41,065 bases of DNA from an uncultured Prevotellaceae bacterium. GTDB taxonomy: Bacteria > Bacteroidota > Bacteroidia > Bacteroidales > UBA932. The notes below the pieces were generated by a model. The model saw only the letters and a list, made by a program, of their open reading frames with translations, made no database searches and was not told the DNA's origin. Where the stretch lies: NCBI GenBank assembly GCA_900314395.1, contig OMVB01000075.1, positions 1 through 41,065 of the forward strand. The letters are read 5' to 3'. The translations under genes were made by a program, and so were the position numbers. Of this stretch, positions 9,046 through 37,729 are shown piece after piece (position 1 is the stretch's first letter; each line of letters opens with the position of its first letter).

Positions 9046-9136
9046 CAAAAAATCCGTTTTAAAGCCACTTTCGTAGCAAGCTAAGTAATTTATCGTCCAA
9101 GGGGGCAAAGTGCCGAATTCGGGCCGTTTCTGCGCG
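9046..9136 (-). promoter_or_regulatory. dispersed promoter-leader module, copy A (drives tape measure)
   Basis: Minus-strand reading shows a -33 TTTG (caaa at 9106-9109), the conserved CGATAAATTA spacer, and a degenerate -7 TAGCTTG at 9077-9083 (spacing about 22). It is preceded by the conserved upstream block (GCGCAGAAACGGCCC) and followed by the AAAGT-N6-TTTAAAA leader block. The same architecture recurs at 11.5, 18.3, 20.5, 26.1, 31.05 and 37.7 kb. Expected transcription start is about 9070, giving a short leader before the tape-measure ATG at 9030. Confidence 0.6.
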
Positions 9137-9144
9137 AAATAGGG

Positions 9145-9900
9145 CTATTTGCGCGCCTTCTGCTTCTTTGCCCGGCTTTGCAGGTATTCAAATGCGTTGT
9201 AGAACTCTGCAACCGTCTTCGTCTTCGCGTCTATCCCCAGCTGCTCCCCAAGTATCAGGCAAAGGGTCTCAAACCGCTTGTCATACTGCACGTCCAGCCC
9301 CTCGCTGCCTGTGTATAGTTTCGGTTTCACGTACAAAAGCACCTTGATTGTCAAGTCCTCTGCATCCGCTTCGGGGTCTTCCACCCCCTGTATGATGCCG
9401 TCAAGGAGCTTCTCGGTGCGCCGCTTCAGTAAGTCATAATACTCTTTCTCTACTCCGTCATTGAACAGGGCGGGGAAATACAGACTTATCTCATCGGTTA
9501 TTTTTTTTTTGACGTCCGAGAGACCTCCGTCCATCTCGTCCGCCGGCGCATCACTTAACAGGGCCAGTATCTCATCCGTTTCCGCGTCCCCTATCTCCGC
9601 AAACTCCCTGCCGTCTACCCTGCGCACGAGGGCCGCGAATGCCCGATGCCTTGGAGTAATGCCGTTTTGGATAAAATAGACGCTAAGGCGCAGATTCTCC
9701 AGCTCCTTGGAGGCATTGTCCTTATCCCCGGAAAGAATGTAATGCCGCGCCCGCTCCAGCTTGCTGTCAAAAGCGGCCAAGTCCCCGCCGAGGCCCGCAT
9801 CCAACAGCATCATCTTCTGGTATCTATGAAAACGCACGATAGGGAGTTTCTCTATCGTGTCATACAATTCCACTTCGTGTTTTCCAACTTTGACTACCAT
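9145..9900 (-). CDS. unknown protein upstream of tape measure (possible tail assembly factor)
   Basis: I place the start at ATG 9900 (MVVKVGKHEVELYD), giving 251 residues. This ATG overlaps the stop of the upstream membrane-protein gene (ATGGTAG), a typical coupling arrangement, whereas the longer open frame would overlap it by over 100 bp. The protein is acidic and mostly helical, with no motif I recognise. In siphoviruses the slot directly before the tape measure usually holds tail assembly chaperones, so that is a reasonable guess, but I see no programmed frameshift site and cannot support it further. Confidence 0.6.
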   Translation of the reverse strand: MVVKVGKHEVELYDTIEKLPIVRFHRYQKMMLLDAGLGGDLAAFDSKLERARHYILSGDKDNASKELENLRLSVYFIQNGITPRHRAFAALVRRVDGREFAEIGDAETDEILALLSDAPADEMDGGLSDVKKKITDEISLYFPALFNDGVEKEYYDLLKRRTEKLLDGIIQGVEDPEADAEDLTIKVLLYVKPKLYTGSEGLDVQYDKRFETLCLILGEQLGIDAKTKTVAEFYNAFEYLQSRAKKQKARK

Positions 9901-10154
9901 AGGCGTACCGCAACAATCGAAGCCATAGGCGCACAGAGCGCAATCCTGTAATCCCAGCAACAAAGGGCGAGCACCACGGCAATCAACAGGCAAGTCCACC
10001 ACGTAGCGCAGAAGTTACAGCAAAGGGCATTATAGATTATATCGCTCTTTGCGTGCATCTGTGCCCAATTCAGCACCCCGCTCTTTGAACAGGCCGCAAG
10101 CACGAAGGCCGCTGCCAATGCCACAACGGCAATCCAACAGATTATATCAAGCAT
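9894..10154 (-). CDS. small cysteine-rich membrane protein
   Basis: 86 residues with an N-terminal transmembrane segment (about 3-20), a central polar stretch, and a second hydrophobic block (about 55-80). The central motif CCNFCATWW resembles the C-x-x-C-x-x-W signature of DUF1360-like small membrane proteins; that family link is tentative. The gene overlaps the next upstream gene by 13 bp and the downstream gene by 7 bp, so it is part of a tightly coupled set. Membrane proteins are unexpected between connector and tape-measure genes. A holin or superinfection-exclusion role is possible but not shown. Confidence 0.65.
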   Translation of the reverse strand: MLDIICWIAVVALAAAFVLAACSKSGVLNWAQMHAKSDIIYNALCCNFCATWWTCLLIAVVLALCCWDYRIALCAPMASIVAVRLW

Positions 10155-10393
10155 ACCCCAATCGTGTAAATGATTCCTATCAAGTCACAGACCGCGTCAT
10201 GGAGTTCAATCGTCCCATGTCCGCTGTAATCCCAGGCGCCTTTCCCTACGGATACGGCTACTTGAGCAACGACAACAAGCCACAAGGGCGCACCCCATAC
10301 GGCTAATGTAAGACCGACGGCAATGACCGCCAGTATATGCAGGAGGCCGTCCGTGCGAACCCACTGCCAAAGCTTGTTAATTAAATCTCGCAT
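10142..10393 (-). CDS. small YfiM/VanZ-like membrane protein
   Basis: 83 residues with two to three hydrophobic segments (about 16-50 and 66-82). The stretch GKGAWDYSGHGTIELHD followed by AVCDLIG resembles the K-x-x-x-D ... G-x-G ... D-x-x-x-D-x-x-G pattern of YfiM (DUF2279)/VanZ-like small membrane proteins. It overlaps both neighbours by 13 bp. In Bacteroides phages such proteins recur, but I know no proven function. Together with the following cysteine-rich membrane protein it forms a two-gene membrane pair inside the morphogenesis operon. Confidence 0.6.
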   Translation of the reverse strand: MRDLINKLWQWVRTDGLLHILAVIAVGLTLAVWGAPLWLVVVAQVAVSVGKGAWDYSGHGTIELHDAVCDLIGIIYTIGVCLI

Positions 10394-10968
10394 AGTTCAT
10401 TGTATTTTAATGTTCCCTCAAATCGGAATCCCCCAAAGGGATGAATGAGAAACTGATTGTCCACCTCATCGATTGTGAATCCCCGGTATATATTCTGCGC
10501 CTGCTCGTAGACGGCAGTCACCTCGAATCGTCCGTCACGAAGCCGCCAGCTTGTACGGTTTCCCAGCACACCAAGAATCTGCGCCTTGAGGTATTCGGTA
10601 TTGCGGTTATCCGCTTCGCCGTACACCCTGCGGAGGTCAAACCACACTACAAGAGAAGCGGGGCTGGTAATGGTACGTATCCCCGGCCCTGTCTCTATGC
10701 GCTGGGGGTCGTCGATAACAAAGAATGAGAAGTTCCCAATCTTTGAATCAGGCAACATGTCGAGGTAGTCATTCGCGCCGTCAACCTTCCAGTCCCCTGC
10801 ATACACGCTCGGACGGACGTAGCGCTTCCCCTGCTGAACGCTCGTTACGCGCTCGGCTCGCCCGAAGGCGTAATCAAGCCAGTCAAGATGAGACGCAAGG
10901 CCCTTCTGAATCTCTCCAAGAACCCTGTCAAGCATGACGGCTCCGCTGATTATCGGTGTTCTATTCAT
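10381..10968 (-). CDS. head-tail connector / tail completion-like protein
   Basis: 195 residues, overlapping the upstream 169-residue gene by 8 bp and the downstream membrane gene by 13 bp. Alternating beta-type segments (VVWFDLRRVYG, FEVTAVYEQAQNIYRG, DNQFLIHPFGGFRFEG) resemble tail-completion or tail-terminator proteins, which sit between the connector and tail genes. No catalytic residues are evident. Assignment rests on gene order (portal, scaffold, capsid, connectors, then tape measure), so it is an inference. Confidence 0.55.
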   Translation of the reverse strand: MNRTPIISGAVMLDRVLGEIQKGLASHLDWLDYAFGRAERVTSVQQGKRYVRPSVYAGDWKVDGANDYLDMLPDSKIGNFSFFVIDDPQRIETGPGIRTITSPASLVVWFDLRRVYGEADNRNTEYLKAQILGVLGNRTSWRLRDGRFEVTAVYEQAQNIYRGFTIDEVDNQFLIHPFGGFRFEGTLKYNELCEI

Positions 10969-11470
10969 AAAGTATATTTCGTATTTCGTTAAACAATTCC
11001 GTCATCACTCCCCGCTCCCTAAGCAAAACGCCCCATTTTTCATCCGACAGGCCGAATCTATCCGCCCCGTACTTCGCCATGATGCCGCTTGCATACGCGC
11101 TCCCCGCCACTATCGCAAGCCCCGTCGGCATGAAATGCACGTCAAGCTCTGAATGGAACTTCCCGTTGATGTACAGGTTCGGGGCATCGGGGTTTCTCTG
11201 CACCTCATACGGATAACTCAAGTCGAGCTTCCATGCCGCGTACTTCTTCGCTGTCTCCGCGCTACGGAAATATCCCGAAGGCTTGAGGTCTTCCGTATAG
11301 TAGGGCCGCAAGTCGTTCCCCGCGTTATCCTTTCCTTCAAGGAGCTGAATCCGCTGGAGTTCGAGAATATCATCGCGCCTGTCTGCCATAAGCGGAGCAA
11401 AGATAGTTCCCTGCTCCAGCTCATCTCGCAGCCTCTCGGCCCGGCGTGTAAGTGCATCTATGATGTCCAT
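10961..11470 (-). CDS. putative head-tail connector / virion morphogenesis protein
   Basis: 169 residues, first gene of a four- or five-gene overlapping set driven by promoter module B at 11485-11575. The N-terminus is helical (DALTRRAERLRDELEQG), followed by a mixed region (LQRIQLLEGKDNAGNDLRPYY) and a C-terminal helix. The segment in which a short helix is followed by G-D-N-x-G-N-D-L is reminiscent of small minor head / HK97 gp10-type completion proteins, but the match is weak. It lies in the usual position of neck proteins after the capsid genes. Confidence 0.5.
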   Translation of the reverse strand: MDIIDALTRRAERLRDELEQGTIFAPLMADRRDDILELQRIQLLEGKDNAGNDLRPYYTEDLKPSGYFRSAETAKKYAAWKLDLSYPYEVQRNPDAPNLYINGKFHSELDVHFMPTGLAIVAGSAYASGIMAKYGADRFGLSDEKWGVLLRERGVMTELFNEIRNILYE

Positions 11471-11484
11471 CGCTCGTTTAAGGC

Positions 11485-11575
11485 CCTTTTTCTTCGTTTT
11501 AACGGGGTTTCCGCATCAAAGGTAAGTAATTTATCGCCCAATGCCAAAAACCCCGCCAAATCGAATTTTCTGAAA
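11485..11575 (-). promoter_or_regulatory. dispersed promoter-leader module, copy B (connector operon)
   Basis: Best-formed late copy. On the minus strand a TTTG -33 (caaa at 11545-11548) is 20 bp from a perfect TACCTTTG -7 (11517-11524), with GGGCGATAAATTA in the spacer. The leader carries the shared CCCCGTTAAAACGAAG block. It lies between the stop of the 466-residue gene (11578) and the ATG at 11470; predicted start of transcription is about 11510. Confidence 0.75.
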
Positions 11576-11577
11576 AA

Positions 11578-12978
11578 TTAAACGTGGGAGTATGCCACTC
11601 CGTTATTGTTGCACTGCAAGCAAATCCGGTCAAGGCCCTGGGTGTCGATGCGGAGGGCCTTATACGCCTGTTGCAAGTCATACGCAAGCCCTGTCGGACG
11701 GCCCTGTGCCACTCCGTCAATCTCGTACAGCAACTCCTCGCGTGTCGCGTTCATCTGATTGCGGTTTACCCTTACATCGGGATTCATCGCAATAGTCCGC
11801 AGAACGTTGGCCGCTACCTGCTTCTGAAGGACATTGGCGAAGATATGCCGCTGGGAAATAAGGAAGTCCGTCAGGTCGCATCCTATTGATACCTCAAGGT
11901 TGATTCCGTAGTTGCACGTCTGCGTGTACATCAGACGCCCTGTGTCAAAAAGGGCCGGGGCTTCCGCGAACCCCTCATCGACATTGACACAGAACGGAGA
12001 AATCTGAAGGTATTTCGTTATCTGCTTCCAACTCTCCAGCGCATAACCCAGGCAGGTAGCGCACGGCTCCTTGCTCCAGTCCTTCGTTACGCTAAGGGCG
12101 CGCATCCCGAAGGGAAGGGCATTCTGGTCGTAACACAAGTACCACGCCCCGCCTGCATCGGTGTTCTCGCCCTTGTATGGAAGGTAGACCTCCTCTTTGG
12201 GAGTAAACCACTGGAACGCGCCACTGGTGTTCGTGTATTCAAGAACAATAGTCCGTATCGGCTCTACCTGTGAGGAGTGGAACAGATACAGAGTAATCTC
12301 GCCGACTGCCCCGCGCATCTGAAGGCCAATGCGCTCTATCTTCGTGGTTACGCCCATGGCACGGACGGGGACTATCTCAAGACCAACAAGCCGCCCCGAT
12401 GGCTGAACGAAACTCTCCAGCCGGGCCGCATTGTCAAACAGCGCACGCCGCTCCAAGAGGGAACGCGTCTCGCGGGCCTGCATCTTCCCTGTCAGGAAGT
12501 TCTGCACCGTTGTATTGATTCCGTTGATGGTAAGCCGGCGCACATAGTCGGACATCATGTTGTAAAGTACCCAATCATCGTCCGCGGCTTTGAAGAAATC
12601 TTCGTTGTAGTCTTCGTTATAGTCTCCGCCCCTTGTGATTGCGGCATTGTAGTCGTTGTTGTAGTCCGCATTGAAATCAGTAATATGCGGCTCGCTCCCC
12701 TTGTTTGCCCTCTTGGCTATCCATATCTTGCCACCGTGCTGCACCTTATCCCCTCGCCGATATATCCTAACGATACTCCACTGCGGATAGCGGTACATGT
12801 AGTCATCGGGCATGATATTGCGGATGTTCTCAAGAGTAAGGAGGGGATGCGCCCCTTGATACGTCAGACCGCTTTCGCTCTTGCACAATTCTTCATCAAT
12901 CTGATTCTGCGGGTCGTAGTTTTGCTCCCAACCTACGAGTGGAAGGAAAGCCTCTTGAATATCGCTAAGTCTTACCAT
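11578..12978 (-). CDS. phage structural protein of unknown role (neck/collar region)
   Basis: 466 residues beginning MVRLSDIQEAFLPLVGWEQ, a sequence start I associate with conserved but unnamed proteins of Bacteroides prophages. Residues 101-129 contain a short repeat of D-Y-N units (FNADYNNDYN, GDYNEDYNED) interrupted by a short linker. The middle section is beta-rich, the C-terminus helical. It follows the major capsid gene after an intrinsic terminator (12993-13025), so its level is probably set below that of the capsid protein. A role in the neck, collar or as a head fibre is possible; none is demonstrated. Confidence 0.65.
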   Translation of the reverse strand: MVRLSDIQEAFLPLVGWEQNYDPQNQIDEELCKSESGLTYQGAHPLLTLENIRNIMPDDYMYRYPQWSIVRIYRRGDKVQHGGKIWIAKRANKGSEPHITDFNADYNNDYNAAITRGGDYNEDYNEDFFKAADDDWVLYNMMSDYVRRLTINGINTTVQNFLTGKMQARETRSLLERRALFDNAARLESFVQPSGRLVGLEIVPVRAMGVTTKIERIGLQMRGAVGEITLYLFHSSQVEPIRTIVLEYTNTSGAFQWFTPKEEVYLPYKGENTDAGGAWYLCYDQNALPFGMRALSVTKDWSKEPCATCLGYALESWKQITKYLQISPFCVNVDEGFAEAPALFDTGRLMYTQTCNYGINLEVSIGCDLTDFLISQRHIFANVLQKQVAANVLRTIAMNPDVRVNRNQMNATREELLYEIDGVAQGRPTGLAYDLQQAYKALRIDTQGLDRICLQCNNNGVAYSHV

Positions 12979-18239: not shown

Positions 18240-18345
18240 CAAAGATAGTTATTTTTTTAAAAAACAAGTAAATTCGCACGTTTTGTTAAATTACGTATAA
18301 TTTACCGCCCGACACCCCAAAGTCCCGCCAAATCGCCTGAAAATG
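18240..18345 (-). promoter_or_regulatory. promoter plus decayed module copy C
   Basis: The functional-looking part is TATCTTTG on the minus strand (18240-18247) with a TTG 17 bp upstream (18265-18267), a slightly short spacing. Further upstream (about 18281-18345) lies a copy of the dispersed module: the block GCGATTTGGCGGGACTTTG, then a variant GCGGTAAATTA spacer. Its own -7 is degraded to TAATTTAA. The 170-bp gap between the terminase stop and ATG 18177 is explained by these elements. Confidence 0.6.
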
Positions 18346-18349
18346 GCCT

Positions 18350-19891
18350 TTAATGGACTACTACACCCACGGAGCCGATATTGTACGGCGCAGTGTTGCC
18401 GTCTGCAAGCTCTTTCTCGTAGATGCCCGTCAGGCAGTCCTCGATGTCGTCATGGGTGTTTGCGGTAAATGCCCGAAGAAATCCCGACAGATGTTTATGC
18501 GCCGCAGGGTAACGCGTCTCCCAGCCTATCGGCATGATGATTTGCGTATTGACAAACGGTGCGGACGTAGTGATGCGCGCCTCCTTGTTTGCCCCTTGAT
18601 AGAAAAGATGACACAGCGCACGGACGCGCTTGCTTACCGTCTTCCCGAACTGACTGCCGCCGTTGTTGGATTCTATCCACGCCTTCTGCACCCGGTTCGC
18701 GTTTATCTGCATCGGTACGGTCTCCGAGGTTATCTCTGTGTTCTCTTGAGTGAATATAATATCCGTCACAAGCGCAAACAGGAGCGGCTCAAATCTATTC
18801 TTCTTGGCGTTCCACAGCTGCTGCCCGCTCTTATAGATGTCATAACTGATAGAACACAGGAAGTCATCCCCCTCATCCGCTACGTCAATATAACACCCAC
18901 TACGGACGTATGCCCCCCAATCGGCTTTGTTTACCCATACCTTGAACGGCTGGTACAGCTTGCTCTCCGCATTGCCGGGGTTGCCCTGATACAGACACTC
19001 AAAACCTACGGCATCTATCTTCCTTAATTCCTCCAAGCGTTCAAGGCTATGGCGAGCGGGCCACAGGGCCTCCCCTTCCTGCCTGCCGTCTATCTCCGTA
19101 GGCTCCCCGCGCTTGATTGCTTCATAGTTCACAAGTACCCAGCTGTTCCCCGCATTGTCCAAGTCCGCCCATGTCTTCGCCTCAATGACTTTCTCCGTCT
19201 CAAGAATCTTACCGATTATATCGTCGGGGTGCCAGCGCGTGAAGACGATGAGCTGTTGGCTGTCATTGTGCAGTCGGCTCTGCGCTACCTTTGTAAACCA
19301 ATCCCACGCGCCGGCCCTGATGACAGGACTCCCCGCCTCTTGCGCATCTTTGTAGAGGTCGTCCATTATCATCACATCAACCGTCTTGGAGGTAAGAGCA
19401 CCGCCACGGCCTACAACCCTAAGCCCTCCAACATGGCCCACCATTTCAAAGACATTACTGTTGCGCAGATAGTTCGTAGATACCGTTACTACATTTGAGC
19501 CATTAAGGAAACTGTCAGGGAAGATTCCCCGGTATTCGGGAGTGTCAATAATGCGCTGCACGTCCCTGTTGAAGTCACAGGCGATTGTACTTGCATACGA
19601 ACAGATACATATCTTCAAATCGGGATTCTGTCCGAGCATGAACGCAGGAAGATAGCGGCTGCTTATCTCGCTCTTTCCATGCTGGGGCGGTGCTTGGATT
19701 ATCAGCTTCTTTATCTCCCCACGCGCAAACTTATCAATGACCCTCATGTAAGACCGATGGAAATCCGTTACTTGATAGTTGGATTTCATATACTGCACGA
19801 AGTACAATATATTTCGCCTTGACGCCTCCTGCCAAAAAAGCCCCGGCGCACTTGCAAGGGCTTTCATGATTCTTATCTGTTCGTTGTTCAT
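18350..19891 (-). CDS. terL: terminase large subunit
   Basis: 513 residues, normal for TerL, the motor that translocates and cuts DNA at the portal. The ATPase Walker A is APPQHGKSE (about residues 67-75), Walker B VMIMDD (173-178), and a coupling-type motif LIVFTRWHP (214-222). The C-terminal nuclease domain shows ISYDIYKSG, AWIESNNGG and a final HDDIEDCLTG acidic site. It follows the small terminase subunit by about 35 bp and precedes the structural genes. Whether packaging is by headful or cohesive ends cannot be read here. Confidence 0.95.
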   Translation of the reverse strand: MNNEQIRIMKALASAPGLFWQEASRRNILYFVQYMKSNYQVTDFHRSYMRVIDKFARGEIKKLIIQAPPQHGKSEISSRYLPAFMLGQNPDLKICICSYASTIACDFNRDVQRIIDTPEYRGIFPDSFLNGSNVVTVSTNYLRNSNVFEMVGHVGGLRVVGRGGALTSKTVDVMIMDDLYKDAQEAGSPVIRAGAWDWFTKVAQSRLHNDSQQLIVFTRWHPDDIIGKILETEKVIEAKTWADLDNAGNSWVLVNYEAIKRGEPTEIDGRQEGEALWPARHSLERLEELRKIDAVGFECLYQGNPGNAESKLYQPFKVWVNKADWGAYVRSGCYIDVADEGDDFLCSISYDIYKSGQQLWNAKKNRFEPLLFALVTDIIFTQENTEITSETVPMQINANRVQKAWIESNNGGSQFGKTVSKRVRALCHLFYQGANKEARITTSAPFVNTQIIMPIGWETRYPAAHKHLSGFLRAFTANTHDDIEDCLTGIYEKELADGNTAPYNIGSVGVVVH

Positions 19892-20478: not shown

Positions 20479-20499
20479 GGTGTGTAGTTATTTTTGTGA

Positions 20500-20586
20500 A
20501 ATCTTTGATTTAACGCACTTTTGATGCAAAGGTATATAATTTATCGGATAAACCCCAAAGTCGCGGAATTTGGGCGGTTTTATGCC
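20500..20586 (-). promoter_or_regulatory. dispersed promoter-leader module, copy D (terminase operon)
   Basis: On the minus strand a TTTG -33 (20556-20559) is separated by 21 bp from a perfect TACCTTTG -7 (20527-20534), with CCGATAAATTATA between them. The leader carries AAAAGTGCGTTAAATC and then AAAGATTT; the upstream side carries a GCATAAAACCGCCC block. It lies in the 124-bp gap between the SAM-synthetase-like gene and the small terminase. Confidence 0.8.
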
Positions 20587-20602
20587 GTTTCCCGGCAAGC
20601 TG

Positions 20603-25225: not shown

Positions 25226-26047
25226 CTATAACTTTTTGAGGTCGTTGTAAAGTGATTTGATTGCTTTGTCGCCAGTTGGCGGGACACCACTGTTTCCACT
25301 ATACCAAGCAAGGGCTTCCATCTGCACCTCGCTGGGTTTCCAATGAGGCTGAGGGCGGAGGGATTTGAGCCTATTTTCAAGCCAAGTCACCATCTTGTTA
25401 TTAGTTTCTCTTCCGCCATGAGATTCCTCGCACAGAGTTGCTATAATGCAGTTTAACATCCCCTCATCTTCTTTGTTCCATTCTGTGTGTCTTTTTCTCC
25501 ATCTTTCTACAAATAAGGTATTCTCTGGAAGATGAACTGTAGTTGCCTTTTCATCATCTATGAAACAGCAACGGAATCCACCATTGCTTTCACGCATGAT
25601 TACTGCATTCTTGCCATGATATTTATGGGCTGGCTGAAGTTCAGAAGGAGCATTTATCCAACAAGGGATAAGGCCCATGAATGTTTTGCCAATAGAGTAT
25701 TGCTCTGCGGGCTTCTGCTCCTTCTGCCTTTCGAGGTAGGCAATCAGTTTTTCTTTAGTTATGTCATCTCCTCTGTACTTTATACCATACTTATCACAAG
25801 CACCTTTTACTATGTGAATCAATGTTTTCCTTATCCTCTCATCCTCGCTCTCCGGCTTTTCTTCGGCTTCGGAAGAATCGATGAAGGAAAGAATCTGTTG
25901 ACATGTCTTCTGTTTCACTCTTTCAATAAGTTCATAAGTATTAAATCCCTGATTTTCAAAATCCTGTAAGCCTTCTTGACTTTTTCCTATAAGCCGTTCA
26001 ATCTCGGCCCTTATTTTCTCGATTTGTGTTTTCTCAATCTGTGTCAT
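25226..26047 (-). CDS. modular accessory protein of Bacteroides phages (unknown role)
   Basis: 273 residues with modules that recur in Bacteroides phages and prophages: an N-terminal coiled coil (RAEIERLIGKSQEGLQD), an ESEDERIRKTLI module followed by EKLIAYLERQKEQKP, a beta-rich centre (KNAVIMRESNGGFRCCFID), and a C-terminal WNKEDEGMLNCII ... WLENRLKSLRPQP ... WKPSEVQMEAL module. These pieces are known to be shuffled between phage genes. No enzymatic function is evident. It is the first gene downstream of promoter module E. Confidence 0.6.
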   Translation of the reverse strand: MTQIEKTQIEKIRAEIERLIGKSQEGLQDFENQGFNTYELIERVKQKTCQQILSFIDSSEAEEKPESEDERIRKTLIHIVKGACDKYGIKYRGDDITKEKLIAYLERQKEQKPAEQYSIGKTFMGLIPCWINAPSELQPAHKYHGKNAVIMRESNGGFRCCFIDDEKATTVHLPENTLFVERWRKRHTEWNKEDEGMLNCIIATLCEESHGGRETNNKMVTWLENRLKSLRPQPHWKPSEVQMEALAWYSGNSGVPPTGDKAIKSLYNDLKKL

Positions 26048-26065
26048 AATTAGTTATTTTCTTAA

Positions 26066-26152
26066 AATTTCCTTTTAACGCACTTTTGCGCTTTGGGGTA
26101 AGGGTTTATCATCTCCGCTGCTAAGGCGCGAATTTGAGGGGTTTATGCGCTA
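26066..26152 (-). promoter_or_regulatory. dispersed promoter-leader module, copy E
   Basis: It keeps the outer blocks of the module (upstream GCGCATAAACCCCTC and AATTCGCG; downstream GCAAAAGTGCGTTAAA). The spacer is altered (GATGATAAACCC) and the -7 reads TACCCCAAAG, so it matches the TAnnTTTG consensus only at TAnn. It fills the gap between the 96-residue gene and ATG 26047. Promoter activity is uncertain; the sequence homology to the other copies is clear. Confidence 0.5.
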
Positions 26153-26440
26153 AATACAACCATTCTCGCAATAATCCATATAATCAGCCCTTTCTTCCGC
26201 TGCCTTGTCTGCATATGCTTCGTCAAGATGCCGCTCCATGATGTAGTCCTCTATCGCTTCCATGAGTTCATCCGTCCTGTCCGCCTCATCCTTGAAATCC
26301 CATTCCAAGTACTGCATCCCCGAACCCCGCTCATCCGTACTCCACTCAAAGGACATCACTATTTCAATCTCCGCCTTACTGGCTGTAATGCCCAGCTCGC
26401 TAGTCTGTATCTTTACGACCTCCTCGTAGTACTCTCCCAC
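26150..26440 (-). CDS. small acidic protein, unknown
   Basis: 96 residues, strongly acidic (many D and E), with a beta start (VVKIQTSELGI, AEIEIVMSFEW) and a helical second half (ELMEAIEDYIMERHLDEAY). Acidic small phage proteins of this type are often DNA mimics, but nothing here shows that. It lies 4 bp after the 135-residue gene. Confidence 0.5.
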   Translation of the reverse strand: MGEYYEEVVKIQTSELGITASKAEIEIVMSFEWSTDERGSGMQYLEWDFKDEADRTDELMEAIEDYIMERHLDEAYADKAAEERADYMDYCENGCI

Positions 26441-26444
26441 GGCC

Positions 26445-26852
26445 TTATCCTCCTATCTTCTTGAATCCGCACAGAACCCGCTGCCCACCTTTGAAACCTA
26501 TGAACCGCGGCCTGTCTTCTGTCTCATCGGAAAGGAAGAATTTCACATCGTCCCCCTCTACGATAACCCCCTGTTCCTGCTCCAACCACATAGCCCGCTC
26601 GTATTCGATGCCGGCCCTGAACATAGCCTGACAAAAAGCCAAAACCTCCGAGCGCGTTGCAACATCTTTCAATGTCGGCTCGATTTTGCCCATGAACAAG
26701 GCCGTAAACGCATCGCCCTCCGTCTGGGCATACATTTCCCCGCTTGCATCGCTACGTAAGGAAATAAGGGCTTTTTTGAGCGATTCTGCAACTCCCTCCG
26801 ATACGAGGGGAAGCAGCTGCTCCAAATTCTTGATTGTCTCTTGTGTTTTCAT
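26445..26852 (-). CDS. unknown accessory protein with DET-P-G-x-K-x-G motif
   Basis: 135 residues. The N-terminal half is helical (IKNLEQLLPLVSEGVAESL); the C-terminal 35 residues end in LSDETEDRPRFIGFKGGQRV then LCGFKKIGG. A closely similar end (VNDETRNNPPLVGYKPGKKV) occurs in the 182-residue protein at 27055-27603, so the two share a C-terminal module. No function known. Confidence 0.5.
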   Translation of the reverse strand: MKTQETIKNLEQLLPLVSEGVAESLKKALISLRSDASGEMYAQTEGDAFTALFMGKIEPTLKDVATRSEVLAFCQAMFRAGIEYERAMWLEQEQGVIVEGDDVKFFLSDETEDRPRFIGFKGGQRVLCGFKKIGG

Positions 26853-30407: not shown

Positions 30408-30807
30408 AACCTAAGTACTCTTTTTTTAATTTGCTGATTGTCTTTTCATTCTTCGGATAAATTCGCATCCCTTCGCGGTTGCCATTCTCCCACGTAGAAT
30501 GACAACCGTGGCAAAGGATATTCACGTTCCTTGCATCATGGGCCATTTCGGGATATGCCCCCCGGCTAAGGATATGCGACACGTACACGGCGGAGTACCC
30601 CCGAAGCGGACGCCCGCATTCTTCGCACAGATGCGGCCTGTGCTCCCAGCACCAACGATAGAACCGAGCGTTCGTCTGGGGGCCGTGCCCCTTTCCAAAG
30701 AACTGCTCCTGTATTTCCCTGCGAATGCGCGGTGCCAGCTCCCACTCCATGAGGGGTTGCCGCCCAGCCTTTACCGCTGCATCGTATTCTTCCTTACTTG
30801 TTATCAT
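30400..30807 (-). CDS. HNH endonuclease
   Basis: 135 residues. A zinc-binding CEECGRPL (C61, C64) pairs with a second knuckle LCHGCHSTW (C99, C102), and the catalytic part reads YVSHILSRG ... H90 ... NVNILCHGCH, with H78 and N94/N96 as the HNH residues. Its place between SSB and a small gene in the replication block, far from the terminases, points to recombination or DNA processing and away from packaging. Confidence 0.85.
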   Translation of the reverse strand: MITSKEEYDAAVKAGRQPLMEWELAPRIRREIQEQFFGKGHGPQTNARFYRWCWEHRPHLCEECGRPLRGYSAVYVSHILSRGAYPEMAHDARNVNILCHGCHSTWENGNREGMRIYPKNEKTISKLKKEYLGYE

Positions 30808-30994
30808 TCGGCTCCGGGGTTATTTTCAAAACACTTACACCGACTTCTACCAAAGTAACGACGTCTTCCATAATCTTCTGCCGCTCGATGGGGACATCTT
30901 CTTTTCCTTGGATTTCTTTGCTCCAGGCCTTGACAACCTCCACTACCTTATGAGGGGGGAAGTTGAACGTAATAACTTCTTTTTTCTTTTCCAT
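30794..30994 (-). CDS. small charged protein, unknown
   Basis: 66 residues, start MEKKKEVITFNFPPHKVVEV. One beta segment and two amphipathic helices (VVKAWSKEIQGKED, KIMEDVVTLVEVGVSVLKI). It overlaps the HNH gene start by 14 bp. It is the last small gene before promoter module F. No family recognised. Confidence 0.5.
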   Translation of the reverse strand: MEKKKEVITFNFPPHKVVEVVKAWSKEIQGKEDVPIERQKIMEDVVTLVEVGVSVLKITPEPNDNK

Positions 30995-31019
30995 ATACTT
31001 AACTTTTTAGTTAATTTTT

Positions 31020-31109
31020 CAAAATCTTTGATTTAACGGGACTTTCGCGCAAAGGTATATAATTTATCGTTCCGCCTCGTCCGCGCTGAAATAGGGCCGT
31101 TTCTGCGCG
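31020..31109 (-). promoter_or_regulatory. dispersed promoter-leader module, copy F
   Basis: Perfect TACCTTTG -7 (31050-31057) with ACGATAAATTATA directly upstream, the CCCGTTAAATCAAAGATTTT leader downstream, and GCGCAGAAACGGCCC at the far upstream side. The -33 TTTG is not present at the expected spacing, so an activator or the conserved spacer may substitute. It precedes the 66-residue gene, HNH and SSB. Confidence 0.7.
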
Positions 31110-31113
31110 ATTC

Positions 31114-31512
31114 TCAAACAGCATCGGCATCTTCTAACACAAGATACAGATTCTCCGCGGCGAACTGCTTTGTAAAGTCTATAAGCTCCGACATCTCACA
31201 CTTTCCCATATCGGACACAGACAGGAGGCCGTCTTCCTGCTGACAGGCGGGACACTGGCTCCGTATCCACTCATCCGTCTCCGCCTTCGTCTTGCGCTCT
31301 CCGAGGTCGTACAGGGCCAGTTGAACACGCGGGACGATATAACCGAAGTAATACCCTCGCATCGCTGCCGTAGTCCCTCGCGGCTCCGCCTGTATGCTTA
31401 TGATAAGGCGGTTCCCGATGTTCTCTTTTAGGTAGGCATCCAGCTCCCCCCGGTACATTGCGAGAGTTCCATCCTTTGCAACAATCGCAGATAGTTTCAG
31501 TGTCCGGTTCAT
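31114..31512 (-). CDS. putative recombination-associated protein (NinB-like? weak)
   Basis: 132 residues. The segment LIISIQAEPRGTTAAMRGYYFGYIVPRVQLAL, broken by a helix, resembles the R-S-x-x-Q-N-x-Y-Y-W/F-G-x-V-x-P pattern of small phage recombination or DNA-binding proteins such as NinB relatives. A CPAC pair follows at about 87-90. It lies two genes downstream of a RuvC-like resolvase (31914-32432). The family link is weak; the recombination context is solid. Confidence 0.45.
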   Translation of the reverse strand: MNRTLKLSAIVAKDGTLAMYRGELDAYLKENIGNRLIISIQAEPRGTTAAMRGYYFGYIVPRVQLALYDLGERKTKAETDEWIRSQCPACQQEDGLLSVSDMGKCEMSELIDFTKQFAAENLYLVLEDADAV

Positions 31513-32432: not shown

Positions 32433-33250
32433 TTCACTAACGATTCTATCTCTATTCCCTGCTTGATTACCGCGTCAAATCCTGCCATTATTGAGGCCCT
32501 CCGTCGGGAAGAATACTTCTCATATAACTTGTTCTCCGTGCGCCTTGAATAAAAGGCTGCAACATCTTGCATGACTTCATCGTTGGACTCCCGCTCTACT
32601 ACGGGCGCATACCCTTTCAGGAATCCAAGGAATAGTATCTCCGCAGCGGGGCTGCAATCGGGGAGCCTGTGCGTTGCCTGATACTCTTTGAACGCCCCAA
32701 GGAAGTCCTCTACGATGGCGGTATGGTACATCTTCTCATCTTCTTCGTTTCGAGGGGCCGAGGACTTCGGGAGCATCTCGCGCACCCTGCTCACTATCTC
32801 CAACCGATACTTCCTGTACGCCCCAAGGATGCGGCATATATAGTCTACCGTAAACTGCTGATAATGCCCTGTGTCCGCCGTGCCGTCAGAACGCTTCGGG
32901 AGGAAGCCGTCCAACTCTCCAGCAATGAGCATCGAGAACGCTACCTTGATGTCTTTCACGGTGAAATGCTCATAGTATATCTCCATAATATCCGCAAGGC
33001 GCGTCACAAGGTAGGCGTCTTCATTGACATTGTTCCCCCAGGCCCTGTATCCAACATCTTTTGCCACGCCCGCAATTACTGGCATTAAGTCCTTGCATAA
33101 CTCTTTATTACTGCCGTACTCGCAGATTCTTTTCTCGATAGATGCAAGATACACCGCCTTCTCCTTTGCCGGAATCCTTTCGAGTACGCCGCTGTTATGC
33201 GCAATCGTCAGCCGCTGCTCCGCCGACATTCTAACTACTATTCCGCTCAT
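32429..33250 (-). CDS. replication-associated protein, unknown (possible helicase loader)
   Basis: 273 residues, helical. Segments LADIMEIYYEHFTVKDIKVAFSM and YICRILGAYRKYR resemble proteins that follow the replication initiator in Bacteroides phages; a helicase loader or primosome accessory role would fit the position, but no ATPase motif is present. It overlaps the initiator-like gene by 4 bp and the RuvC-like gene by 4 bp. Confidence 0.5.
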   Translation of the reverse strand: MSGIVVRMSAEQRLTIAHNSGVLERIPAKEKAVYLASIEKRICEYGSNKELCKDLMPVIAGVAKDVGYRAWGNNVNEDAYLVTRLADIMEIYYEHFTVKDIKVAFSMLIAGELDGFLPKRSDGTADTGHYQQFTVDYICRILGAYRKYRLEIVSRVREMLPKSSAPRNEEDEKMYHTAIVEDFLGAFKEYQATHRLPDCSPAAEILFLGFLKGYAPVVERESNDEVMQDVAAFYSRRTENKLYEKYSSRRRASIMAGFDAVIKQGIEIESLVK

Positions 33251-34146: not shown

Positions 34147-34177
34147 CAAATATAGTTGTTATTCTTGTAATAGCAAA
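34147..34177 (-). promoter_or_regulatory. promoter of the replication sub-operon
   Basis: Minus-strand TTTG (caaa 34174-34177), 19-bp spacing, TATATTTG (34147-34154). It overlaps the last few codons of the 244-residue gene and gives a leader of about 100 nt before ATG 34038, including A-rich and short inverted sequence. Confidence 0.75.
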
Positions 34178-34893
34178 CTCTTTCCGTCTACGGGTTTAAG
34201 TAATTCGCGCATTTCTTCAAACCGCTGGTCGTTTGCGGTAAGGCTGATGACAGGATAACGGCTCGTAACGCCGGGCTTGTTACTCTTGGCAAACTTAACC
34301 GCAAGGTCAAAGACCGTCCCTGTTACCGTCTTACGCATCGCCTGTACTGCATCGAAACTCTCCCTGATATTGCGGACGCTGCTGGCCGCTCCCTTTGTAG
34401 TAAGCTGCCATACACCCACAATCCCACGTACCGCCGGAATGATAAACCGCATCGTCAGGGTAATATCCCAGCCGTTATCGTTCTCATCCTTCGGCTTTCG
34501 GGGATACCGCGCAGCAAGACGCTCCATTATATCGGGGTGCTCCGCTGCGGAGTACTCAACGTATTTCTTACCGTTCCATACTTGGAACACCTGTCCGTCC
34601 CCCGATGCCACCAGCGCACCGCTTCCGTCTCGCAACTCGTACCTCTCATTGCAGACCTTTTCGGGGTCATCATCTGGGAAGATAACCTGAATAACTCTCG
34701 GCTTTCCCTCGCAGCTTTCAAATGCCTTCTCAAAGGCCGGGGCATATACGCCCCTCGCCTTGAAGTAATCCAACGCCACCGGGTATTCCTTCCCGTTCTG
34801 GCTTAACCTCTTTTCTCCGATACCGATGCGGCCTATTTCGGGGAGTTCGAGAATGCTTTCATTTGTGTTTGGCCGCAGTATTCTTCCGCTCAT
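34159..34893 (-). CDS. Gp3/RDF-like phage protein (uncertain)
   Basis: 244 residues. The opening IGRIGIGEKRLSQNGKEYP, then YFKARGVYAPAFEKAFE and RVIQVIFPDDDPEKVCNERY, then ELRDGSGALVASGDGQVF, follow the layout of Gp3-like recombination-directionality-factor-type proteins that in many phages serve as early single-strand-binding or recombination factors. With no integrase here, a directionality role is unlikely. The other reading is a general early protein. Confidence 0.45.
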   Translation of the reverse strand: MSGRILRPNTNESILELPEIGRIGIGEKRLSQNGKEYPVALDYFKARGVYAPAFEKAFESCEGKPRVIQVIFPDDDPEKVCNERYELRDGSGALVASGDGQVFQVWNGKKYVEYSAAEHPDIMERLAARYPRKPKDENDNGWDITLTMRFIIPAVRGIVGVWQLTTKGAASSVRNIRESFDAVQAMRKTVTGTVFDLAVKFAKSNKPGVTSRYPVISLTANDQRFEEMRELLKPVDGKSLLLQE

Positions 34894-34910: not shown

Positions 34911-35609
34911 TTAGAAATTAAGGTTATATTGAATTTTCTCGCCCACCTTGCCCACCTTAGTGAGTTCGTGGTTGAACTTGTAGTTTTGATTCCGCACCTT
35001 GACTACGACCGACCAAAGTTCGTCCTCCGACAGGTCCTTGAGCCTGCGCCATTCTTCATCTACAAGAGCACGCACTGCCTCGTAGCCGTTGTAAGCCCTT
35101 GTATCGCCACCAAAGAGGCCGGCATCAAACCGGCGGTAGAACTCCGGAAAAATCCTTTCGGAAACTTTATGCCGCATCTTTCCGTCCTTGCGCTTCTGAA
35201 TCTCCTCATCCGACAGAAGGCGTGCCACCTCTTTAAACATGGCGAGGAGTTCTTCGCGCTCCACGGTGATAGGATAACGCTCACACTTCCCGTCATTATA
35301 CCACTTGCCGGGGATTTTATTGTTCCCGCTGATTGCGTTCCAAAGCGGCATACATACAGTCCCGTCAGTCCTGTCTCCCTGCCAATAGATGTCGATTGAA
35401 ACCCTGCCCTCGGAGTTGAGGTGGATGCCCTCGATGCCGTGCGACCAATTGTAGTTGTCGTGGACATATTCCCTGCCGAAAGAAATAGTCCTCCAGCCGT
35501 AATTCTCGCCCCAAGCGAACTCTTTGGTCGAAAGAATTTCCTTCATTACCGATGCGGCCTTATCGAGATTGCCGCTTGTCAGTACCTTTATGTATTCTGC
35601 TGCGCTCAT
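34911..35609 (-). CDS. unknown early-region protein
   Basis: 232 residues. The first half is beta-rich with YGWRTISFGREYVHD and SIDIYWQGDRTDGTVCMPLW; the second half is helical and basic (LLSDEEIQKRKDGKMRHKV, LVDEEWRRLKDLSEDELWSVV). It lies between the exonuclease and the Gp3-like protein. No known motif. Early recombination partner is a guess from neighbours only. Confidence 0.5.
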   Translation of the reverse strand: MSAAEYIKVLTSGNLDKAASVMKEILSTKEFAWGENYGWRTISFGREYVHDNYNWSHGIEGIHLNSEGRVSIDIYWQGDRTDGTVCMPLWNAISGNNKIPGKWYNDGKCERYPITVEREELLAMFKEVARLLSDEEIQKRKDGKMRHKVSERIFPEFYRRFDAGLFGGDTRAYNGYEAVRALVDEEWRRLKDLSEDELWSVVVKVRNQNYKFNHELTKVGKVGEKIQYNLNF

Positions 35610-35611
35610 AG

Positions 35612-36664
35612 TTATTTACTCGTTTTCTTTGATTTAACAGGGGTTTCGTCTGCAAATAAGGGTTTTATCGGCTCATCCTCATCCGCGCCGTCTAAGGGCT
35701 TATTTTCGCCCATTTTGACAAGCTCGGCAAGAGTCATCTCCGTAATCACTTTTGAAGTATCAAAATTATCGAGGTCTATTTCTCCCCTGATAACGGAAAG
35801 CCCATCGGGGCGGGATTCGTCTTCAATCCGTGCCAGTGCCAACAGGGCCGGCAACTTCTCAACGGCCTTGCTCCCAGTTTGGTCTTTGAGGTTGTACGTG
35901 GGTTCCTTCCGCCAGTCCTTCGGGCTGAAATTGAAAACGCGCTCGGCTGGATTATCGGGGAAAGTGTAATCCCACATTTCTTTATACAGATGCAGCTGAA
36001 GCTCGTGCTCCTCCCAAAACCCCTTGCGTCCGCTCTTGAAGTCCACGATAGCCGTCACGTCTTTCCCCTTAATCGTCATCACGCATGGCATATCCAAACA
36101 ACCTGCATACCTGCGGTCGGGATGTACAAGGCTTATCTCAATAGCCAGCGGACGGACATTGTAGTCTTTGATAAACTGCGCAAAAGAGAGGACATCCTTG
36201 CGGAGTTTGTTCACGTTGTCATTGAAGAACCCTTCGGGAAGGTGGTTCTCTTCCATAAACCTGCGCATCGTCAGGGGAACGAGGTCGAAGTTATACTTCC
36301 GACTGATAATGAGCTTCTCGAACTCCATATGCATCAACGTACCATAATACGCAGCGAGGTCTCGCTTTTCAAGGGCCTGCTCTTTGCCGTTGTCGAGCAT
36401 CCAGTCAATGAGCTGCGGACTGGTAGGCATAACGTTGCGTAGGAGTGTCGTTACACTTGGATAAAATACGGCTTCCCCTCCTTCCTCAAATCGGTAGTAG
36501 TAACGGTATCCTTCTGAATCCAATCTGTAAACGCGGTAAGGAGGGAGCCGCAGTGCATGCTCATCGAAGAAAACGGCTTTCATTTCTTCGATTGTGAAAC
36601 CGGGAGCAACCTCAACGCCCTGGGCCTTGTCTGCTCCGTCATTCTTAATTCTCTCTTTAATCAT
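35612..36664 (-). CDS. PD-(D/E)XK (RecB/Cas4-like) exonuclease
   Basis: 350 residues. The nuclease core is readable: H112 in GTLMHMEFEKL, D191 in YAGCLDMPCVM, VDFKSGRKG at 207-215 (D208, K210), and the QLHLYKE helix at 223-229. These are the RecB-type motifs I, II, III and QxxxY. N-terminal residues 40-90 are a variable cap, and the C-terminal 100 residues are flexible and acidic. It would process DNA ends for recombination with SSB and RuvC-like proteins encoded further along. No Walker helicase is fused. Confidence 0.85.
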   Translation of the reverse strand: MIKERIKNDGADKAQGVEVAPGFTIEEMKAVFFDEHALRLPPYRVYRLDSEGYRYYYRFEEGGEAVFYPSVTTLLRNVMPTSPQLIDWMLDNGKEQALEKRDLAAYYGTLMHMEFEKLIISRKYNFDLVPLTMRRFMEENHLPEGFFNDNVNKLRKDVLSFAQFIKDYNVRPLAIEISLVHPDRRYAGCLDMPCVMTIKGKDVTAIVDFKSGRKGFWEEHELQLHLYKEMWDYTFPDNPAERVFNFSPKDWRKEPTYNLKDQTGSKAVEKLPALLALARIEDESRPDGLSVIRGEIDLDNFDTSKVITEMTLAELVKMGENKPLDGADEDEPIKPLFADETPVKSKKTSK

Positions 36665-36684: not shown

Positions 36685-36909
36685 TTAGTCAATGCCCAGC
36701 AGGAAGTCCGCGCTGCATCCGCACTCCTCGCAGATTATCTTTATCCATTGAGGGGGAATGTACTTTGTCCTGCCCATGCAAAGATTAGACATGTTGATTT
36801 TTGCCGCATGAACAGAACTGTCAGGCCATATCCTTTGAGCGAGCTGCGTCTTCGTAATCTTGCGCCCTGAGGTCTTAGCCGCTGTAATTGCTTCTTTGAT
36901 TCTTAACAT
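36685..36909 (-). CDS. XRE-type HTH regulator
   Basis: 74 residues: ITKTQLAQRIWPDSSV followed by KINMSNLCMGRTKYIPP and IIKIICEECGCSADFLLGID type helices, i.e. a complete Cro/C1-like helix-turn-helix with the family-typical ending SADFLLGID. It is the only clear transcription regulator in the window and is placed near the control region, so it may act on the dispersed modules. No partner repressor or antirepressor is seen. Confidence 0.85.
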   Translation of the reverse strand: MLRIKEAITAAKTSGRKITKTQLAQRIWPDSSVHAAKINMSNLCMGRTKYIPPQWIKIICEECGCSADFLLGID

Positions 36910-36921
36910 ACATTTATCATT

Positions 36922-37266
36922 TTAGAAAATATCATCATAACAGTTATCATCAATGAGAAGGCACCTGCAAAACGCCTCAACTATCCTGTCTGGGATAAAG
37001 GGGAGTCCGAACAGGCCCTGAAACAAGACGTTTATCTTGCAGAGCATTTCCCAGCCGCTGGCCCCTTCGCTGATTACGTCCTTAACAGTGTAGCCACACA
37101 CTCCGCACTCGTTAATCTGCGCCTGCATTTCTTCGCTTACGGCCATGACAGGCTCAAGGGCTGCACCGAACTTCTCTGAAAGGGAGAGCATCGTCTGCCC
37201 CACCTTGCTCCCTTCGGGAAGAAACGCAAACACTTCCCGGAAATCATCATTAATAAATAGTCTCAT
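36922..37266 (-). CDS. unknown early protein
   Basis: 114 residues from ATG 37266 (MRLFINDDFREVFAFLPEG). The longer frame is rejected because it would run through the upstream stop region. It contains an ECGVCGY pair and a late CRCLLIDDNCYDD cluster, so several cysteines might bind metal. Helical core (QTMLSLSEKFGAALEPVMA). No family recognised. Confidence 0.5.
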   Translation of the reverse strand: MRLFINDDFREVFAFLPEGSKVGQTMLSLSEKFGAALEPVMAVSEEMQAQINECGVCGYTVKDVISEGASGWEMLCKINVLFQGLFGLPFIPDRIVEAFCRCLLIDDNCYDDIF

Positions 37267-37277
37267 AATATCCTGTT

Positions 37278-37511
37278 CTAATAATAATAGAAACTTACTT
37301 TGATACCCCTGCGGAGCTTGCAAATAACCTTGTCTTCGCAAGAATTGAATGCCCTGTCAAGAAGCCTGTTCGTCAGTCCTGCATCTCCAATGTATTCAAG
37401 CATCCCCTTAACTCCTACGAGGGTGTTTACCTTGCTCCCGTTGAAAATCCCACTGACTTTGATTTTGAGATTATGGTTAATCTCGCGTGTTGTGTACTTA
37501 AGTGTTTCCAT
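37278..37511 (-). CDS. small early protein, first gene after control region
   Basis: 77 residues from ATG 37511 (METLKYTTREINHNLKIKV), chosen because it follows the canonical promoter at 37533-37563 with a leader of the usual length. Basic overall, with the C-terminus KVICKLRRGIKVSFYYY. Being the first early gene it could be a host-takeover factor. That is inference. Confidence 0.55.
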   Translation of the reverse strand: METLKYTTREINHNLKIKVSGIFNGSKVNTLVGVKGMLEYIGDAGLTNRLLDRAFNSCEDKVICKLRRGIKVSFYYY

Positions 37512-37532
37512 ATCGTTTGTTTTTTTACGTTG

Positions 37533-37563
37533 CAAAGATACAAATAATTTTTGTATTTACAAA
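37533..37563 (-). promoter_or_regulatory. canonical Bacteroidales promoter, copy 3 (early operon)
   Basis: Minus-strand TTTG (37560-37563), 19 bp, TATCTTTG (37533-37540). It has the same spacer text as copies at 27836 and 28930. It is the only promoter directly in front of the early/recombination genes that shows both boxes perfectly. Confidence 0.85.
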
Positions 37564-37634
37564 CTTTTTTGAAAGAAATTTAATATCTCCATCTTTTCAG
37601 CATCGGGCAGGAAACCTCCGATTTGCCCTTATTT

Positions 37635-37729
37635 CGCTAAAATCTTCGTTTTGGCGCGACTTTGCATTAAAGGCGAGTAATTATATACCCCGAACCCATT
37701 CTCGCGATTTTAGAGGGGTTTTTGTGCGT
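37635..37729 (-). promoter_or_regulatory. dispersed promoter-leader module, copy G (divergent spacer)
   Basis: It shares the outer blocks with the other modules: upstream GCACAAAAACCCCTC and downstream GCAAAGTCGCGC, then AACGAAGATTTT. The inner part is changed (GTATATAATTACTCGCCTTTA), so -7 function is doubtful. It lies in the control region between lysis and early genes, immediately before a plus-strand promoter-like signal. Confidence 0.5.

Follow-up and report, generated by a model that had tools for sequence, protein, structure and literature searches.

A DNA element of 105-120 bp was found in eight copies bordering the gene blocks of a phage in the window, the whole 41,065-nucleotide contig from an uncultured Prevotellaceae bacterium that was analyzed here, and its conserved unit is an AATT-centred imperfect palindrome with a AAAATAAC end, in which AT-rich and GC-rich DNA alternates every ~9.7 bp. 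Such phasing is as expected of wrapped DNA, and the element looks built for wrapping around a protein. We regard it as a candidate gyrase-type wrapping site, with a rough probability of 0.4 judged from sequence comparisons. The copies and related features are collected in Table 1.

Table 1. Element copies, host-type -7 motifs and the candidate binding protein in the window
Feature	Position	Strand	Remarks
Copy A	9034..9147	-	upstream of tape-measure gene; centre ~9090; central -7 decayed (TAGCTTGC)
Copy B	11474..11582	+	centre ~11526; reads against its minus-strand operon (inverted); strong hairpin
Copy C	18245..18359	-	between terL and phrog_8193 head gene; centre ~18303
Copy D	20484..20596	-	upstream of terminase small subunit; centre ~20541; CRISPR protospacer
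Copy E	26049..26161	-	upstream of gene 26047..25226; no -7
Copy F	31007..31117	-	upstream of gene 30994..30794; centre ~31064
Copy G	37628..37733	-	border of late genes and early region; predicted centre ~37682
Copy H	35601..35718	-	overlaps exonuclease gene 3′ end; upstream of gene 35609..34911; centre ~35665
Host-type -7 TACCTTTG	11517..11524	-	perfect; inside copy B, on gene strand
Host-type -7 TACCTTTG	20527..20534	-	perfect; inside copy D
Host-type -7 TACCTTTG	31050..31057	-	perfect; inside copy F
Host-type -7 TATCTTTG	18240..18247	-	directly after AAAATAAC end of copy C
XRE/HTH-like protein, 74 aa	36685..36909	-	label from the initial annotation; candidate binder

The initial annotation had described seven recurring copies as a promoter-leader module, and the family was indeed present at all seven places, far above chance. 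In a leave-one-out nhmmer analysis of the window, 6/7 held-out copies were recovered at E <= 7e-6, the exception being copy C, which gave short matches only (E 0.15 for the gene strand, 0.061 for the opposite one). The seven copies scored 40-65 bits with a sequence-only model of 30 modules, seven of which come from the window itself. A weaker eighth copy at ~35.65 kb (copy H), missed by the annotation, was reported by all seven leave-one-out profiles at 11-28 bits; it is the weakest copy, with 18.2 bits in the 30-module model and <8 bits with the relatives' profile. The GCGCAnAAAC block that had been assigned to the upstream side was clear in A, E and F and nearly matched in G, but was not clear in B, C and D. 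The sequence CGATAAATTA occurs exactly in copies A, B, D and F, and with up to two mismatches it is at chance level in the window (36 versus 41 expected). TACCTTTG was found nine times in the window against 1.0 expected, with only three of the nine inside elements, and these bare motifs on their own are weak evidence for the family.

To describe the family beyond the window, a profile was built on one strand and then rebuilt without regard to orientation. The alignment and profile search that had been proposed for the seven intervals and related phages recovered the family in the latter, where it sits at corresponding gene borders; shuffled DNA gave no matches. Whole relatives carry 3-10 elements each. 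In the host assembly, profile R1 gave 10 matches at E <= 0.01, all within the phage contig, and 60 related genomes searched under stricter filters yielded one weak match (E 9.9e-4); a host origin of the element was rejected on both grounds. No description of the element appeared among the search results for open PMC papers.

Bacteroidota primary-sigma promoters carry a TAnnTTTG -7. The perfect -7 motifs claimed at 11.5, 20.5 and 31.05 kb are there exactly, so a central host-type -7 is carried by 3/8 window copies (B, D and F), and none was found in A, E, G or H or at the centre of C. The decay of the -7 that had been proposed for C, E and G is thus correct for their centres, but the motif is decayed in A too and copy C has its own -7 just after the element. 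Of 152 sites, just 9, including three window copies, had a TAnnTTTG starting 0-9 bp past the centre. Further out, at +50..59 relative to the centre, it was observed at 37 sites against 1.0 expected, and 34 of these 37 belong to class C, which places C copies directly in front of a host -7; no TAnnTTTG was found just after A-class copies. The TAnnTTTG -7 is therefore not part of the conserved unit, and local promoters form a separate layer, with a host-type -7 within three copies (B, D and F) and another immediately downstream of C. In relatives the -7 is mostly missing from the centre while arms, AATT centre and AAAATAAC end are retained, which bears out the suggestions that the outer blocks matter in their own right and are conserved beyond what sigma recognition needs.

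The orientation of the copies was also considered. As a correction to the initial annotation, copy B reads on the plus strand, inverted with respect to its operon, and in a recount by position 28/30 sites at position B were inverted; one more inverted site, in L084, falls at position A. Of the 11 positional classes, 10 were mainly co-oriented with transcription (p 0.012). In relatives, coding sequence overlaps with three kinds of copies (H, F and post-RuvC), and in such overlaps synonymous codons were frozen (90% versus 59% and 49%). The flippable orientation at B together with these frozen synonymous sites argues for a function at the DNA level. A role as mRNA leader, which had been offered for the outer blocks, or as ribosome-binding block was rejected on account of the inversion at position B and the retention of AAAATAAC where no start codon follows, as in the G and pre-XRE copies, which have no gene start directly after the element; C copies moreover lie upstream of their -7, and the coding overlaps likewise do not fit a leader. 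The initial annotation, seven promoters for host sigma that share a conserved leader, is an unlikely description: the perfect motifs in B, D and F speak for it, but the absence of a -7 from most copies, and from the centre in most relatives, the inversion at B, the coding overlaps and the retention of AAAATAAC without a gene start speak against it. The core CGATAAATTAYNTACCTTTG also lends this view something, as exact matches were found in 9 stretches across 257 Gb of bacterial genome sequence against 3.7 expected, and two of the seven matches listed (L204 and L208) lie, as we read them, just before tRNA genes. As a phage-specific motif CGATAAATTAYNTACCTTTG was not supported, with one other viral contig and nine genome stretches versus 3.7 by chance.

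The flanks consist of alternating AT-rich and GC-rich blocks with a spacing of ~9.7 bp, a pattern that extends for ~58 bp to the left and right of the centre; the phasing is weaker at the centre and fades beyond ~60 bp. At 123 non-coding sites, the helical AT/GC power at 9.5-10 bp was ~6 times that of AT-matched random DNA. The median periodicity was 2.45 in elements and 0.53 in 239 module-free intergenic stretches, whose 95th percentile was exceeded by 72/84 element sites. One period held per element, 9.65-9.75 bp in every class group tested, with 9.7 bp over the full element and 9.55-10.35 for single arms. When the window was scanned for AT/GC alone, with a template made without window sites, its top eight loci were its eight copies, and the same eight were returned by a further phased-template scan. 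Periodicity taken free of phase was not specific, since a module-free window locus at 38.3 kb reached 3.71 whereas copy F had only 1.46, and in the relative PDS1, a phage of Parabacteroides distasonis, four other loci outscored its element (1718-1806).

On the gyrase-type reading, each copy, a 105-120 bp element at the edge of a transcription unit, would be built to wrap around a protein, perhaps host DNA gyrase. The cleavage segment would lie at the palindrome centre and the flanks would be wrapped, an arrangement known from the strong gyrase sites of Mu and pSC101; the copies would then serve as topological sinks or as boundaries that separate phage operons. The helical AT/GC phasing on either side of a central segment that marks strong gyrase sites was found in the element, which we also compared with characterized sites. 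The pSC101 locus at 4740, which we take to be the likely partition region reported to bind gyrase, lies between traD and rep; it was the plasmid's top match to the phased template, its strongest periodicity (4740/4741, period 9.75) and the best match of the characterized sites tried. At the annotated gyrase cut of Mu, both arms were in phase with the elements to ~0.5-0.7 bp, with a period of 9.95. The cut ranked 1 of 7804 within 4 kb (2 with longer templates), but the match stood out less once the entire genome was ranked and base-composition bias removed: z was a moderate 3.1, with rank 48 of 73,154 positions (134 for the arms only; locus rank 32). Templates rolled in phase matched Mu equally well, which counts against the gyrase reading. 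A candidate site in phage Ab30 matched weakly and an Sp18-like prophage moderately, and nucleotide profiles of the element gave no match to the Mu or pSC101 gyrase sites. A pBR322-type gyrase site, presumably at 990, gave no match in the phased-template or periodicity scan. Its position has been given as 991 (PMC12324340).

The E. coli gyrase motif, which may not be that of the Bacteroidota host, is described as 47-36-47 bp (PMC6379681, in part), and the phasing of the element is alike in being weak at the centre and fading beyond ~60 bp. Its 9.7-bp period may count against gyrase, which shows 10-11 bp; the overall values at pSC101 and Mu were 9.75 and 9.95. Strong gyrase sites such as the Mu SGS and the pSC101 partition locus resemble the element in their ~110-130 bp, their phased AT/GC flanks and their phage- or plasmid-borne nature, but they occur singly, compared with 8 copies in the window and 3-10 in whole relatives. 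The element further differs in its sharp conserved blocks, its period and its lack of base-level homology, and its binding by gyrase is a prediction.

Degenerate gyrase motifs explain neither the sharp AAAATAAC end nor the co-orientation of 10 of the 11 classes, and these features would suit an operator. It is possible that a phage-encoded regulator, best represented by the 74-aa XRE/HTH-like protein (without a Pfam match), binds the element cooperatively and bends it, so that early promoters (G, pre-XRE) are repressed and late ones (C, A, D) activated. The AATT centre and AAAATAAC end would be its sequence-specific blocks; C copies directly precede a host -7, in the genomes inspected, the G and pre-XRE copies precede early promoter cassettes, and XRE was present in 19/19 other genomes compared, the pre-XRE copies suggesting autoregulation. 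However, XRE is also encoded by B40-8, BF695P3 and G019, in which no element reached at least 14 bits, and the co-occurrence is confounded by descent. A 74-aa Cro-like protein alone does not explain 110 bp of phasing, and neither the A-class copies, lacking TAnnTTTG just after the element, nor the inverted B fit well. We favor the gyrase-type site over such an operator, binding by either protein being a prediction.

Recombination and RNA structure were weighed as well. A replication or recombination site, serving as annealing or exchange point for the exonuclease and Gp3-like pair, appears very unlikely. The pair was present in 16/16 other genomes with the element (a count including TCUEAP2 on a 9.8-bit site) and in 0/3 without, but this co-occurrence follows phylogeny; alignment ends fell near elements in 193 of 2993 cases against 160 expected, an enrichment of only 1.2-fold that weakly favors the cassette exchange at outer blocks suggested at the outset. 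An RNA hairpin acting as terminator or RNase III-type processing site is the least credible of the alternatives. Inverted (class B) sites fold strongly (n=10, mean z -3.4), window copy B reaching -27.2 kcal/mol (z -4.35), and arms were matched within class B (z -7.7), here meaning all 29 inverted sites in the arm-pairing and downstream-context analyses preceding the recount, and within class C (z -4.4). The other 74 sites were barely above control (mean z -0.9 versus -0.36), and arms from the same genome paired no better than swapped ones (z -1.0 overall, +3.1 for non-B sites). A stable, site-specific fold was clear for class B only, and a general hairpin or processing site was rejected.

Two viral systems offer partial parallels. 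The class I intergenic repeats of halovirus HF2 (58 bp, promoter-active; PMC8707807, in part) are likewise dispersed and intergenic, with genus-conserved positions and identity blocks between variable parts; however, they belong to a haloarchaeal virus and their promoter activity was shown, whereas most copies here have no promoter and some lie in coding sequence. The operators and stoperators of mycobacteriophage L5, 13-bp asymmetric sites of the lysogeny repressor (PMC9283540, in part), are similarly numerous, located at promoters and in short intergenic gaps, with orientation tied to transcription. A stoperator system was rejected, as the element is ~110 bp and partly palindromic with one position inverted, and PDS1 is described as lytic and without lysogeny genes in the part of the source consulted (PMC10773633).

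The element is a sensitive marker of the phage family even without the wrapping reading. Its analysis corrects a promoter-leader annotation and reveals selection at the nucleotide level within phage protein genes. One copy of this repeated element, copy D, is matched by a host CRISPR spacer with 1 mismatch. Tentatively, genomes of this Bacteroidota siphophage family may each possess as many as ten sites dedicated to gyrase wrapping, located at many of the operon boundaries and in part within coding sequence. Through them, host gyrase or some other wrapping protein would be recruited and the phage transcription units insulated topologically, a distributed version of the single strong gyrase site of Mu. 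If wrapping is true, the predicted gyrase cut positions would be testable to the base, and non-transposing phages would keep the topology of their DNA controlled by sequence where operons meet.

The repeat is real: a deeply conserved DNA element, in eight copies in the phage of the window. All seven copies described in the initial annotation were present, and leave-one-out profiles regained 6/7 of the held-out copies at E <= 7e-6; for copy C, short matches only were obtained (E 0.15; 0.061 on the opposite strand). An eighth site, termed H, was reported by every one of the seven profiles with 11-28 bits, and a sequence-only model of 30 modules, 7 of them taken from the window itself, gave 40-65 bits for the seven copies but 18.2 bits for the eighth. 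The bare motifs were weak evidence of a repeat family, because TACCTTTG lay mostly outside the modules (9 occurrences in the window against 1.0 expected, 3 of them inside modules) and near-matches to CGATAAATTA were at chance level.

Coordinates of the copies and associated features (window positions unless stated otherwise)
Feature	Coordinates	Strand	Location
Copies A, C, D	~9.1, ~18.3, ~20.5 kb	minus	
Copies E, F, G	~26.1, ~31.05, ~37.7 kb	minus	
Copy B (hairpin)	11495-11582	plus	
Site H	~35.6-35.7 kb		
Target of CRISPR spacer	20502-20531		copy D
CRISPR array	G000:C30:36014-36770 (L126/L058)		same assembly
Early-type promoter cassettes	27843, 28937, 37540	minus	before small early genes
Exonuclease and Gp3-like gene	34159-34893 and 35612-36664		
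XRE protein	36685-36909	minus	
Periodic module-less locus	38.2-38.45 kb, peak at 38343		inside or near gene 38530..37916
Terminal overlap	1-55 = 41011-41065		window ends
Class F overlap			end of upstream gene
Post-RuvC overlap			start of small gene
Class H overlap			end of exonuclease
Reversed A and B copies, locus L084	12886-12969 and 17394-17470		L084
Repeats of phage B40-8 (L159)	23-122, 16722-16821, 18932-19031, 32498-32597		B40-8

The window was identified as the 41,065-bp IMG/VR record IMGVR_UViG_2799112702_000002, contig C122 within the 2.30-Mb assembly, and as a tailed phage by PHROG matches (terminase, portal, head and tape-measure genes). Its genome is most likely circular with 41,010 bp, because the ends share a 55-bp direct overlap. 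The portal protein was 61-63% identical to those of Parabacteroides phage PDS1, Bacteroides phages C1_85S2P and BKO1-3 and Alistipes phage AS73P1, and 59-70% in 65 other IMG/VR loci returned by the portal query; no integrase was found among the window proteins scanned. The exonuclease and the Gp3-like gene (recombination directionality factor-like, PF18897) co-occurred with modules in 16/16 other genomes; neither turned up in the 3 genomes without modules.

The profile search of related phages proposed in the initial annotation did find the family in relatives. The 7-copy profile gave 82 matches of at least 12 bits in 36/94 dereplicated loci and none in one dinucleotide-shuffled copy, and a one-strand iterated profile, trained on such matches, gave 119 sense matches of at least 14 bits in 43/95 sequences (the window included) and 0 in shuffled DNA. 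The comparison took in 7 named phages as well as 12 whole relatives; 11/12 of the relatives carried 3-10 sites each (at least 14 bits), at matching places: the late-to-early border, before XRE, the exonuclease end, after RuvC, NinB-to-HNH, terL-to-head gene, before the tail gene and before the tape measure. PDS1, C1_85S2P, AS73P1 and BKO1-3 carried two sites each, TCUEAP2 a single weak one (9.8 bits), and the compared genome G019, B40-8 and BF695P3 none that reached 14 bits. A separate promoter-leader family of ~100-bp repeats is present in four copies in phage B40-8, and ~100-bp repeats also occur in BF695P3 and TCUEAP2.

In the host assembly, to which the phage contig also belongs, a CRISPR array with a 36-nt repeat and 11 spacers contained one spacer matching copy D at 29/30 bases, with copy F differing at 7. 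This spacer was the sole module match beyond the phage contig in nucleotide searches (E below 1e-3), whose other matches were non-module stretches, early promoter cassettes among them; the module model likewise found no other copy over the assembly at E <= 0.01. A further spacer of the array is similar to the beginning of the gene at 26852 (7 mismatches in an ungapped comparison).

Orientation was counted for 152 sites of at least 14 bits in 44 sequences. Sites were co-oriented with transcription at position A (30/31) and at all remaining positions (91/91), and inverted at position B (28/30, the window 11.5-kb copy among these); 10 of 11 positional classes were mainly co-oriented (sign test p 0.012). 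The AAAATAAC end therefore cannot be a general ribosome-binding or leader block. Locus L084 shows the reverse arrangement, its B-position copy running with transcription and its A-position copy being inverted. Antisense matches of at least 12 bits coincided with sense modules in 77/78 cases; part of them were the inverted B sites, and the remainder reveal a partly palindromic element.

A host-type TAnnTTTG box started 50-59 bp past the centre in 37/152 sites, 34 of them class C, where it immediately follows AAAATAAC, and 0-9 bp past it in only 9/152, of which copies B, D and F of the window make up three; the expectation was 1.0 for each bin. Among A-class sites only that of BKO1-3 had a box in either bin. 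Host promoters are therefore attachments on some copies and not the core of the element. A second dispersed family, of early-type promoter cassettes (TTTG-19-TATCTTTG plus a common leader), was also seen, some of which match host contigs.

Exceptional RNA folding was confined to the inverted sites (mean z -3.4, n=10; other sites -0.9, n=74; random 87-mers -0.36). Same-site arms paired no better than arms swapped within a genome, whether all sites (z -1.0) or non-B sites (z +3.1) were taken; within classes, pairing was better than swapped for B (z -7.7) and C (z -4.4). Shared half-sites thus account for the dyad, to which B adds a true hairpin. In copy B and the relatives' inverted sites this hairpin is strong, and its arms remain matched from one relative to the next; copy B may in addition act as a terminator or as a processing site.

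Selection acts on the element at the DNA level, as seen in relatives, where three classes overlap genes. Identical codons at conserved amino acids amounted to 1637/1817 inside against 10,891/18,306 outside for class F (120 pairs), 210/234 against 305/617 for post-RuvC (21 pairs, genome G002 entered in another reading frame) and 51/51 against 417/729 for the exonuclease (3 pairs), the window, PDS1 and C1_85S2P being left out. Peptide conservation cannot explain the sequence match, because by our own reading the exonuclease copies use a frame different from that of the F and post-RuvC copies. A peptide like KAPQIEN..KIT is common to two different proteins of relatives at the F and post-RuvC sites, since the DNA element passes through both genes.

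The AT/GC spectrum at 9.5-10 bp was ~6x the AT-matched background (123 non-coding sites). Median periodicity was 2.45 in 84 whole-genome sites versus 0.53 in 239 module-free intergenic stretches, with 72/84 sites above the intergenic 95th percentile. The period was 9.7 bp (bootstrap 9.70-9.75; 9.65-9.75 in each class group tested), and phasing reached ~58 bp per side, weaker at the centre. With an AT/GC template excluding the window, its top eight loci were its eight copies, as again with five window copies in the template; phase-free periodicity was less specific, with 1.46 at copy F against 3.71 at the module-less 38.3-kb locus, where a ~10-bp AT/GC periodicity is strong. Such phasing has the look of DNA wrapped on a protein surface, and a wrapping design is well supported.

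As to the partner, published work describes a gyrase motif in which periodic flanks of 47 bp surround a centre of 36 bp (PMC6379681) and a 10-11 bp GC periodicity near the cleavage sites of gyrases of three species (PMC12324340). Known sites were scanned with a template built on 116 non-coding modules. In pSC101 the top-scoring position among 18,246 was 4740-4743, between traD and rep, which we take from gene context to be inside the partition locus; it was also the plasmid's strongest phase-free periodicity (3.45, next 2.15; period 9.75). The title of Wahle and Kornberg (1988), as cited in PMC4982056, names this partition locus a specific gyrase site. At the annotated Mu cut (17879/17880), both arms were in phase with the modules to ~0.5-0.7 bp; the composition-sensitive score ranked it 1 in 4 kb but 68 of 73,236 genome-wide, with genome-wide ranks of 48 without composition and 134 with arms only, and by locus it came fourth within 4 kb, falling below the top six when arms only were scored. 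A Mu-like prophage peaked 15 bp past gene G, fifth or sixth in 4.4 kb, Mu's own cut lying 20 bp past gene G. The pBR322-type site, at position 990, gave no template signal (z 0.9), the Ab30 candidate site was weak (z 2.1-2.3), and neither the Mu cut nor position 4740 of pSC101 showed a base-level profile match. Taken together, the known-site tests lend moderate support to gyrase.

A phage regulator is the slightly less probable partner. The candidate binder, XRE, has homologues of 38-54% identity in 19/19 other genomes compared and was present in 15/20 IMG/VR records searched. Three of the genomes with homologues lack modules, so XRE is on these data a possible binder. Host gyrase, at a probability of about 0.4, is tentatively put forward as the protein on which this DNA element would be wrapped.
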